Position numbers and translations under genes: made by a program. The notes beneath the pieces were generated by a model. It saw nothing but the letters and a program-made list of their open reading frames with translations. It had not been told where the DNA came from and made no database searches. Source: Antedon bifida (taxonomy: Eukaryota > Echinodermata > Crinoidea > Comatulida > Antedonidae). Taken from it: DNA of 64,000 nt. Where the stretch lies: positions 15,154,085 to 15,218,084 of the forward strand of contig OY727103.1 in NCBI GenBank assembly GCA_963402885.1. Direction: 5' to 3'. This document shows positions 18,746 to 61,116 of the stretch, piece after piece (position 1 is the first letter of the stretch; every line of letters starts with the position of its first letter).

Positions 18746-21340
18746 TTATCCAAGTTCATTTACAATTTCTGAACTTGTTATTGTCTCTGACGAGCTTTGT
18801 AGTATTGTAATCTTTAAATCATTATTTGTACATTCCATTTCTTGGTTGGTGTTCTCCACTTCCATGCTCTCCACTTGTTTTTCGGTACTCTCCACTTCTG
18901 TACTTGTACATTCCAATTCTTTTTCAGAACTCACCACTTCCCTGATTGTAGACTTAATCTCATTATTTGAACTCTCCACTTCTTTGGCAGTACTCTCCAC
19001 TTCTATGCTTGTACACTTTATTTCTTTGTCAGTACAAACCACTTCCCCGACTGTACACTTAATCTCATTATTTGTACTCTCCACTTCTTTGTCAGTACTC
19101 GCCACTTCCATAACCTCATTGTTTGTATGGTCTGTTTCTTTGTAAGTACTCTCCACTTCTGTGCTTGTACATTCCAATTCTTTGTCAGTACTCTCCACTT
19201 CTGTGCTTGTACTCGCTACAGTAGTATTTTCTTCTGGAATACAGCTGCCGACTACGTCCTCCGGCAGCATTTGCTCTTCTCTCTCTGTTGATTCTTCCTG
19301 CACAAGATTATTAGAAACATTGTTTTTAATTTCAGTTTGTAGATCAATAATTTCTGACACAGAATTAGAGGTTGCCAGTTCTGCCACAGGATCAGAACCA
19401 GTAACACACTCTTCTACCGCTTTTGAATGATTGTTATGTTCTTTATCTCCATATTTGGAAGGGTAATCTGTTGCTGTAGATGATGTGGCAATCTCAACCT
19501 GCACTGGATTGTCAGTTGATTCTGATTCAGTATGTGAATAATCAATTTCAATGTCCTGAATGCTCTTTGTTATTAGTTCTCCACCATTGTCAATCTGAAT
19601 ATTCTGCTCATTGATGATCTTATTGTCTACTTCCTTTGGTATGTCATTAATGCTACTATTGTTCATGTCATCATCACTATCACTTGAAGAACTTGTATCC
19701 ACTCCATCCACTTCCATTGTGACTTCTTCCTGTTCCTCAGCAACTAATTGTGACACGGGAGAATTCTCAGCTGGGGTCGAAACAACTGAAACAAACTCAT
19801 CGACTTCAAGTGCAGTGCCAATTACACCTGTATCAATATGTAAATGATCACCTTCTTCGTCATCATTATCACTGGGGTCTTTCTCAAGTTTGAGGGATGT
19901 AACTGGAGAAGGAGCTCTTGGTGATGTTGATGAAGAGACGCTGATGCTTTTGCGGAAACTCTTGTTCTGCTTTCTGACACATTTAACACAAGCATATTCT
20001 TCATCATCAGGAGGCTCCTCTTTCATTCCTGTAACAAAGATTTTCCAAAATAATTATTTTTCAATAAACTTTTTACACCGATGTTTTCAACATTTTTACC
20101 AAGACCGTGGTAAGTTCTACTGGACAGGTATTGGTTGGGCCGAGGAAATTGTAGCCAGTGCGATATATATCTCATAATTTGACATCAAAACTCATATGTA
20201 TAAAATGCATCGTAAAGCTCTGTCTACACTATCAAACTAGTGATGTGATGTGCCCAAATATGGTAGTAATACGCTCAAATATGGTAATGATATGACATCC
20301 TGTCCATATATGGGCACAGTGAGTTCGTGAGTTCGTACAGAGTATCTAGAATGCAGTAGTACTAGATAGTAGGCCTAATGTAAATGAAACCTATGAAATA
20401 CATCAGAATGTATGCAATAAAAATATTATACGGCAACATTGTGAATTAATCAAATTAAATTTGACAACATCCCACTATGCAGCCGGTGAACCACAATGAA
20501 GTGGGCCAACTTTTTTTCATTCAATTTGTATCGCCAGACAAGTAACACGTATCAGTATGTTTGATTTGCACCGATGTTCCATGTGTTTTTTCGCTCCCAG
20601 TCTATGCGCTCTGTAATGTGGGTCATGGGTTATTGGATTTTATTCAACGAATGTATTATTTTAGCAGTGTTGGCCGATTCGTTCGTATTGGTATAAATCA
20701 AGTTTTCTAGAGAAACTTCCATACAATGAAATGGAAACGAAGCATACTTAATATCAACAATCTCTAGGCTCTGTGCCTAGCCAAGGCCTGTGGCTAGGCA
20801 GGCCTACTCGGGCATAATTGTAGGGGTAGAATTCGTCGATCCAAGGTGGGTTATTATACTAGTATTGTTCTCTTTTGATAGCTGGTAACAATGGTGTATA
20901 TTTAACACCCTCCCTTCGGATACATAACAAAACAAAGCCTCTTGTAGAATCGCGATCCAAAAACAATACCTTCCCGTGGTAACGATCAAAAGACAATACT
21001 TTGTGGGTTTGCGATCTAAAAACAATGTTCCACGCTACCAAAGGTTACATATGGGAACGAAGCAATTAATAGCTGTACTTTAAAGTTTGATAGTGTAGAC
21101 TGACTTTACATTCAATCTCAATAGTAAAAAACAGAAGCATATTAGTTTGCTTACCTATGCAAAGTAGATGATACCATTGTTCACACTTGTCGCATTGAAT
21201 CCAGTTGATATCATCACCCAGAGGTCGTATGCAGTATTTAGCAGAACAGATTTCATCCTCGTCATCATCGTCTCCATCGACAACAATTACCTGGTCTTTA
21301 TCCTTGTCAGTTCGATTCTTGATCTTCGTACCATCTTTGT
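18746..21340 (-). CDS. KDM5: KDM5 PHD3 finger and long C-terminal repeat tail (exons 26-27)
   Basis: Exon 21340-21155 and the start of exon 20028-18746 form PHD3: [34 protein letters not shown] and DEEYACVKC. In KDM5A, PHD3 binds H3K4me3. Human KDM5A/B end within a few tens of residues after PHD3, but here about 400 more codons follow. They are rich in Glu, Ser, Thr and Val, start with a Ser-rich basic stretch ([20 protein letters not shown]), and finish in imperfect 14-residue repeats such as [14 protein letters not shown] before the TAA at 18746. The frame is open throughout, so the tail looks genuine. Confidence 0.9.
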
Positions 21341-60900: not shown

Positions 60901-61116
60901 TAGTATCTTTAACTAAATTTAGGTCTGATATATAAATTGTTTCTTCAATGAATGAATTTTTGTATGACTGATGCAAATATAAATCACCGATTTCTCGTTA
61001 AACATTGAAACGATTCAAGTGTAGAACAGACGGGTTGAGCTAAAAACAATGTCGACTTACCTTATACCATCACGTATGTACGAAGAGTAAGGAGTCCAGA
61101 TATTGAAAAATGACAT
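47910..61116 (-). CDS. IQSEC: IQSEC (BRAG) Arf guanine-nucleotide exchange factor
   Basis: Twelve coding exons with consistent phases: 61116-61061, 58749-58260, 58046-55888, 55563-55402, 54237-54123, 54029-53715, 53602-53483, 52924-52825, 51807-51655, 48905-48720, 48515-48469, 48056-47910 (TAA). The product has 1349 residues. Order: IQ motif near 199-215, long Ser-rich linker, Sec7 domain from about 901, PH from about 1100, basic C-terminus. It activates Arf GTPases (Arf6 in the known family) and, in neurons, acts at synapses under calmodulin control through the IQ motif. Vertebrates have IQSEC1-3; this is probably pro-orthologous. Further 5' exons beyond 64000 cannot be excluded. It is the third gene of a conserved KDM5 neighbourhood. 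Confidence 0.95.
48605..48697 (-). pseudogene. U2 snRNA-like sequence, divergent
   Basis: On the minus strand TTCTCGGCCTTTTGGCTAAG, then ATCATGTGTAGTGTCTGTTC and TTTTCAGCTTAATATCTGAA match the U2 5' domain (nucleotides about 6-65) with a few changes. The branch-site pairing segment GUAGUA reads GTAGTG. After this it diverges, but CTGCTC-ATT-GAGTAG still forms a hairpin. No clear Sm site follows. The upstream flank, where a U2 promoter would lie, is an IQSEC coding exon, so a retrocopy or pseudogene is most likely. Confidence 0.75.
51655..53602 (-). CDS. IQSEC: IQSEC PH domain exons
   Basis: Exons 53602-53483, 52924-52825 and 51807-51655 encode [56 protein letters not shown] and [20 protein letters not shown], then [20 protein letters not shown]. 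This matches the atypical IQSEC PH domain, which binds acidic phospholipids. Confidence 0.93.
51895..52140. repeat. Duplicated block in an IQSEC intron
   Basis: ATATATTATATAATCT, then TGACCTATATAGAAAGAGTC and CATCAACATGAATC, occur near 51910-51980 and again near 52072-52138 with small differences. An AT-rich direct duplication. Confidence 0.6.
53715..55563 (-). CDS. IQSEC: IQSEC Sec7 domain exons
   Basis: Exons 55563-55402, 54237-54123 and 54029-53715 encode [40 protein letters not shown] and [20 protein letters not shown] with [20 protein letters not shown]. The catalytic glutamate (glutamic finger) is the Glu of PGEAQ, near residue 985, and is present. The Sec7 fold is complete, so exchange activity is expected. 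Confidence 0.96.
55888..58046 (-). CDS. IQSEC: IQSEC long exon with IQ motif
   Basis: This 2159-nt exon starts [20 protein letters not shown], then [20 protein letters not shown], an IQ motif matching the human RTIQTAFRQYQMNKNFERLR. About 640 residues of Ser/Lys-rich, probably disordered sequence follow, with [12 protein letters not shown] and SSLPRR patches. It ends [14 protein letters not shown], the conserved lead-in to the Sec7 domain (human [14 protein letters not shown]). Confidence 0.95.
58260..58766 (-). CDS. IQSEC: IQSEC exon 2 with possible alternative start
   Basis: The spliced exon is 58749-58260 and ends with [18 protein letters not shown], matching the human IQSEC1 segment SRSLSESYELSSDLQDKQ before VEM. 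The frame is also open across the acceptor to an ATG at 58766, giving [10 protein letters not shown]. One human IQSEC1 isoform, as I recall, begins MWCLHC, so this exon may double as a first exon. The N-terminal cysteines could be lipidated, which is speculation. Confidence 0.8.
59723..59750. promoter_or_regulatory. ETS plus YY1-like motif pair inside an IQSEC intron
   Basis: ACTTCCTG (CAGGAAGT on the minus strand, an ETS site) lies 11 bases from CAATGGCGCG (YY1-like ATGGCG). Such pairs mark TATA-less promoters. It stands out from the surrounding AT-rich sequence and is about 960 bases upstream of the ATG at 58766. Evidence is motif only. Confidence 0.3.
60681..60925. repeat. 18-bp minisatellite
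   Basis: About twelve imperfect copies of TAACTAAGTTGGTATCTT run head to tail, best preserved at 60740-60830. In IQSEC intron 1. Confidence 0.85.
61061..61116 (-). CDS. IQSEC: IQSEC candidate first coding exon
   Basis: ATG at 61116 opens [18 protein letters not shown] and ends in phase 2 at AG|GTAAGTCG. The next exon (58749) begins in the required phase, so the join reads [11 protein letters not shown]. Phase match and strong donor are the evidence; I recall no homologous N-terminus, so it may be one of several alternative first exons. Confidence 0.65.

Follow-up and report, generated by a model that had tools for sequence, protein, structure and literature searches.

Did KDM5, CCDC77, and IQSEC stand side by side in the vertebrate ancestor before the two whole-genome duplications (2R)? 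This question is raised by a stretch of 64,000 nucleotides from the crinoid Antedon bifida (assembly GCA_963402885.1, contig OY727103.1, positions 15,154,085 to 15,218,084), hereafter the window, in which an ataxin-7 (ATXN7)-family gene (+), KDM5 (−), CCDC77 (+), and IQSEC (−) follow one another from left to right. The initial annotation of this DNA had named KDM5, CCDC77, and IQSEC as direct neighbours on these strands, and spliced alignments, Pfam domains, PDB matches, and stop-free frames bore this out. The order in the window is probably that of the vertebrate ancestor before 2R.

Three adjoining genes in the crinoid window

KDM5 (minus strand, 38883-18746), CCDC77 (plus strand, 39587-43151), and IQSEC (minus strand, from 58749 or 61116 to ~48.4 kb) adjoined directly, and KDM5, CCDC77, and the IQSEC core all held zero internal stops. 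Exons were mapped with human KDM5A, CCDC77, and IQSEC1/IQSEC guides, which were not database entries. Spliced alignment to the KDM5A guide gave 28 segments on the minus strand, from 38867 to 19886, in which 916 of 1625 aligned residues were identical, and yielded a stop-free model of 1671 residues. In the spliced KDM5 query, from which the variable ARID-PHD1 stretch was omitted, Pfam recognized JmjN, ARID, PHD, JmjC, KDM5_C-hel, C5HC2, and PLU-1 in this order; together with the later PHDs (PHD3 from the alignment only), this is the domain succession of the KDM5 (JARID1) family.

IQSEC was recognized by Pfam through its Sec7 (3.3e-70) and IQ_SEC7_PH (1.3e-45) domains. Its top PDB matches were IQSEC2 (E 5.6e-121) and IQSEC1 (E 3.9e-120), followed by Arno/cytohesins (2.7e-50). 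The core was identical to the guide at 231 of 409 residues in a 417-residue model free of stops, and the N-terminal part including the IQ region (58620-58260 and 58046-57867) was identical to the IQSEC1 guide at 73 of 176. An IQ region, seen in the alignment only, was thus followed by Sec7 and an IQSEC-type PH, as in the IQSEC (BRAG/schizo) family. CCDC77 formed a complete 504-residue frame with a stop codon in 9 exons, the first at 39587-39615 and the remainder spanning 40111-43151, and spliced alignment to the human guide protein gave 225 identities in 447 aligned residues. The alignment score was 1034.5; the reversed query scored 101, and three shuffled queries scored 74.5, 87, and 67. Searched against PDB, the predicted CCDC77 protein returned no match, and Pfam returned only a sub-cut-off match to Fez1; its name depends on the human guide sequence. 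Although the guides were not database entries, misidentification of the genes is very unlikely in view of the controls and the strength of the spliced matches.

No further gene was recognized between CCDC77 and IQSEC (43151-48300), where the longest stop-to-stop frame on the plus strand was 79 residues and the longest minus-strand frame (86 residues) had no Pfam match, shorter frames being left unscanned. Over the whole window, the GC content was 0.339 and the observed/expected (o/e) CpG ratio 0.68; it contained no N, and a tRNA scan returned no hit.

Vertebrate gene orders and the candidate ancestral arrangement

At human 12p13.33, a clinical deletion paper lists IQSEC3, SLC6A12, SLC6A13, KDM5A, CCDC77, B4GALNT3, NINJ2, and WNK1. 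In this list the KDM5A-CCDC77 neighbourship is the same as in the window, whereas IQSEC3 differs, lying beyond SLC6A12/13 on the other side of KDM5A. At Xp11.22, tabulated coordinates place KDM5C at 53,220,503-53,254,604 and IQSEC2 at 53,262,058-53,310,796, with ~7.5 kb between them; this neighbourship is again that of the window, and the passages on the X chromosome name no CCDC77 between the two. In mouse, Iqsec2 is described as bordering the 5′ end of Kdm5c, with Kantr downstream, so that IQSEC lies on the 5′ side of KDM5 on mouse X as in the window. In chicken, CCDC77, IQSEC3, SLC6A12, and KDM5A are reported to share one homozygosity island, their order not being stated there. KDM5C and IQSEC2 are both intellectual-disability genes and are jointly duplicated or deleted in some patients.

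The initial annotation had described KDM5A and CCDC77 as head to head at 12p13.33 with IQSEC3 nearby, and KDM5C and IQSEC2 as adjacent on the minus strand at Xp11.22. The orders agreed with the 12p list in the first case and with the tabulated coordinates, mouse being concordant, in the second. For an assumed genome of ~20,000-25,000 genes, the chance of CCDC77 being one of the two direct neighbours of KDM5 is ~1e-4, and that of IQSEC lying within two genes of it is ~2e-4. Because random neighbourhood is this improbable, the agreement between the window and human is unlikely to be accidental, and chance adjacency of the three genes was rejected on the two independent matches to human order. 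An assembly error, or chance, is likewise an exceedingly improbable source of the arrangement: the order was taken from a single assembly, but the window has no N and two of its neighbour relations were matched independently in human. Human KDM5A, KDM5C, and IQSEC2 lie on the minus strand and CCDC77 and IQSEC3 on the plus strand, and no CCDC77 is known next to KDM5C or between KDM5C and IQSEC2 on the X chromosome.

Since its KDM5-CCDC77 pair agrees with 12p and its IQSEC, 5′ of KDM5, agrees with X, the window order is the one that needs the fewest changes. With this order as the starting point, loss of CCDC77 on X and a single relocation of IQSEC3 on 12p would suffice; any other ancestral order calls for an additional coincidence. 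The pre-2R ancestor would then have carried KDM5 (−), CCDC77 (+), and IQSEC (−) contiguously. The chromosome-12 copy would have retained the KDM5A/CCDC77 pair, with IQSEC3 ending up beyond SLC6A12/13 on the far side of KDM5A; the X copy would have retained the KDM5C-IQSEC2 adjacency and lost CCDC77; and the remaining two copies would have been left with only KDM5B or only IQSEC1, which lie on chromosomes 1 and 3, respectively. We infer ancestry of the order, as opposed to coincident rearrangements.

At the scale of chromosome blocks, the KDM5 and IQSEC regions have already been assigned to one ancestral chromosome. Lagman et al. (2013; PMC3826523) described the visual opsin/OT-VP receptor/CACNA1-L paralogon as blocks distributed over human chromosomes 1, 3, 7, 12, and X and derived these blocks from a single ancestral chromosome; the 34 neighbouring families of their Table 2 include KDM (lysine specific demethylase 5) and IQSEC. 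B4GALNT and WNK are there as well, and B4GALNT3 and WNK1 of these families come after KDM5A-CCDC77 at 12p13.33 as listed. The table lacks CCDC77, and the main text gives no gene-level KDM5-IQSEC order, in contrast to the gene scale of the window, which newly adds the order, the strands, and CCDC77 between KDM5 and IQSEC. In open-licence literature, supplementary tables being outside the search, we found no description of the KDM5-CCDC77-IQSEC order as ancestral. Likewise, IQSEC, KDM5, JARID1, and ATXN7 were absent from the main text of the other paralogon studies searched, and KDM5, IQSEC, CCDC77, and JARID were unnamed in the main texts searched on animal microsynteny and deuterostome genomes, supplements not being covered in either case.

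Shared membership of this paralogon also bears on another possibility, that gene-scale ancestry is limited to the KDM5-CCDC77 pair and that IQSEC, on the same ancestral chromosome, joined the pair independently here and in the lineage of vertebrate X. A repeated local meeting of KDM5 and IQSEC is less unlikely for two families of one paralogon than for random genes, and on 12p, as listed, IQSEC3 lies near KDM5A yet on its other side with SLC6A12/13 between, so that both distance and side were altered at least once. The window and X, however, agree on neighbourship as well as on the side of IQSEC, and an ancestral triplet would save one event; we consider independent joining quite unlikely. With the triplet taken as ancestral, the window would supply a gene-scale order for a stretch of the pre-vertebrate chromosome that PMC3826523 reconstructs at block scale, and the fate of one small neighbourhood would be traceable through 2R in four copies. 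It would also place a chromatin gene and a synaptic Arf guanine nucleotide exchange factor (GEF) gene in an old neighbourhood and not in a mammalian coincidence.

Placement relative to the vertebrate duplications

The ancestral reading expects the window genes to have branched off before the vertebrate copies separated. Two PDB chains, labelled IQSEC1 and IQSEC2 and taken as human, served for comparison in the Sec7-PH region, where the window protein was identical to IQSEC1 at 194 of 332 residues (58%) and to IQSEC2 at 186 of 332 (56%), whereas IQSEC1 and IQSEC2 were identical to each other at 278 of 337 (82%). Because the two human proteins are this much closer to each other than either is to the window, the window IQSEC falls clearly outside their split and branched before the IQSEC1/IQSEC2 duplication. 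Over JmjN plus JmjC, the window KDM5 shared 323, 317, and 342 of 463 residues with KDM5A, KDM5B, and KDM5C, respectively, and the three copies shared 347 (A-B), 359 (A-C), and 348 (B-C) of 464 with one another. The window KDM5 thus appears roughly equidistant from the three, which weakly suggests a pre-duplication gene, less firmly than IQSEC does.

These distances also speak to whether the window belongs to a lineage, vertebrate or otherwise, that postdates the duplications and carries a rearrangement of its own. Its KDM5 core was slightly nearer to KDM5C than to KDM5A or KDM5B, and KDM5C is the copy beside IQSEC2. A vertebrate IQSEC orthologue, however, would be expected to lie far closer to one of IQSEC1 and IQSEC2, IQSEC3 standing outside the comparison, and human CCDC77 is listed beside KDM5A, and none is known beside KDM5C. 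Such a post-duplication source is highly improbable, and a vertebrate origin of the window was ruled out by the IQSEC distances.

Several points weigh against a pre-duplication order. The order comparison sets one invertebrate locus against vertebrate loci. Among the JmjN plus JmjC sites at which the window matched one copy only, 10 matched KDM5C, 5 KDM5A, and 3 KDM5B; taken by themselves, these could point to an affinity with KDM5C. KDM5D was included in one comparison, a tree of 92 ARID columns with fly Lid as the root; there the window protein lay outside KDM5A/B/C/D, but the node of the four copies had a support of 28. Furthermore, 23 of the 34 families in PMC3826523 date to 2R, four agree with this timing yet are without invertebrate members, and for seven the dating is inconclusive; the class of KDM and IQSEC is left unstated in the main text. 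The earlier proposal of a pre-duplication order is supported in part, by the human gene orders, the IQSEC distances, and parsimony, with the KDM5 tree a weak element. We regard the locus as a real and probably ordinary case of ancestral microsynteny and a new example of a known phenomenon.

The KDM5-CCDC77 gap, gene structures, and the left neighbour

KDM5 and CCDC77 stand head to head, with start codons 703 bp apart (gap 38884-39586). Bidirectional promoters are defined by divergent start sites less than ~1 kb apart together with joint regulation, and the quantity measured here is start-codon spacing; from this spacing, the gap is a candidate shared divergent promoter that may help to hold the two genes together. 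Four 500-bp windows starting from 38750 to 39500 had a GC content of 0.286-0.352 and a CpG o/e of 0.76-1.01, and none showed a CpG island by a simple test (GC > 0.4 plus o/e > 0.9). Only scattered ETS-, NRF1-, and YY1-like words occurred in the gap. The palindrome TAGGCCTA was found at four places in the window (20370, 38957, 39862, and 40024), compared with a shuffle mean of 0.36, and three of these sites cluster within ~1.1 kb around the KDM5 and CCDC77 starts. The word is associated with echinoderm-like genomes, but its excess here is too slight to identify a phylum.

Conserved ancestral microsynteny in animals takes the form of genomic regulatory blocks or of shared-promoter pairs. The window resembles such cases in that unrelated genes were apparently kept in order over deep divergence, two of them as a divergent pair separated by 703 bp; unlike regulatory blocks and shared-promoter pairs, it is known here from sequence alone. 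A speculative and rather unlikely extension would be functional cohesion for more than 500 million years, in which a shared KDM5-CCDC77 promoter and IQSEC regulatory elements in or beyond CCDC77/KDM5 held the genes together until, after duplication-born redundancy, each copy could shed a constraint, that of CCDC77 on X and that of IQSEC on 12p; such a block may include the ataxin-7-family gene.

The KDM5 gene (18746-38883, minus strand), a predicted histone H3 lysine 4 demethylase gene of the JARID1/lid family supported by spliced alignment and Pfam, has ~27-28 coding exons, from a start codon at 38883 to a final open frame ending at the stop at 18746. Along the minus strand are JmjN (38867-38736), ARID (~35046-33406), PHD1 (31549-31271), the linker with JmjC/C5HC2 (30210-27789), the PLU-1 region (27586 to ~23930), PHD2 (in 23255-22215; by Pfam, inside the exon 23255-22197), PHD3 (by alignment only, in 21340-21155 and 20028-19886), and a repeat-bearing tail down to 18746. 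A 15-bp alignment segment at 33142-33128 is doubtful and probably an artefact. When the KDM5 core was scanned once against genome contigs and once against viral contigs, no relative emerged: the former gave 32 pattern matches, none confirmed, and the latter none. The intron that follows the PHD1 exon holds an 81-bp minisatellite (30297-30934, 7.9 copies, 98% match), the unit of which is open on both strands as a 27-residue repeat. In the C-terminal exon (18867-19214, minus strand), imperfect 21/42/105-bp tandem repeats encode a repeated VESTxKEVE-like tail, which is not known from human KDM5A.

The IQSEC gene (48364-58749, minus strand) is an Arf GEF gene with IQ motif, Sec7, and PH, of the BRAG/schizo family, as identified by Pfam, PDB, and spliced alignment. 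It comprises a large open exon (58067-55884) with the IQ region at 58046-57867 (from alignment to the IQSEC1 guide only), Sec7 (55563-53715), PH (53602-51655), and a conserved tail (48905-48720), with a tentative 3′ end. Pfam recognized nothing in the open frames 55887-58067 and 58149-58769. The end point 61116 given in the initial annotation corresponds to a possible first coding exon (61061-61116, minus strand) whose GTAAGT donor joins a TTTGCAG acceptor at 58749 in frame; the join is unproven, being one of 8 in-frame joins listed. The last two segments, 48515-48469 and 48381-48364, are doubtful alignment pieces, and a 17-bp piece at 63168-63152 from the IQSEC1 alignment is probably spurious. 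Within IQSEC, just past the segment ending near 48720, lies a U2 small nuclear RNA-like sequence (48556-48699, minus strand; Rfam RF00004, 90.4 bits). Its 5′ part is well kept and its 3′ stem-loops are shortened, as would suit a pseudogene or a diverged copy of U2.

To the left and convergent with KDM5 lies the ataxin-7-family gene (2565-14305, plus strand), a predicted SAGA subunit gene with limits and further exons unconfirmed. Its SCA7 domain falls into two parts, in the open frames 6135-6275 and 6614-6943; when joined manually, these gave a Pfam value of 5.6e-23 and a PDB match to 2kkr (E 6.8e-16), and the larger piece by itself gave 1.2e-6 in Pfam. Human ATXN7 lies on 3p, one arm of the same paralogon, and the conserved block may extend to this gene, that is, to four genes. 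A possible transposase remnant of the Sleeping Beauty/CENP-B helix-turn-helix type (12933-13235, minus strand; E 2.4e-5 and 5.7e-4, both below curated cut-offs) lies between the presumed limits of the ataxin-7-family gene.

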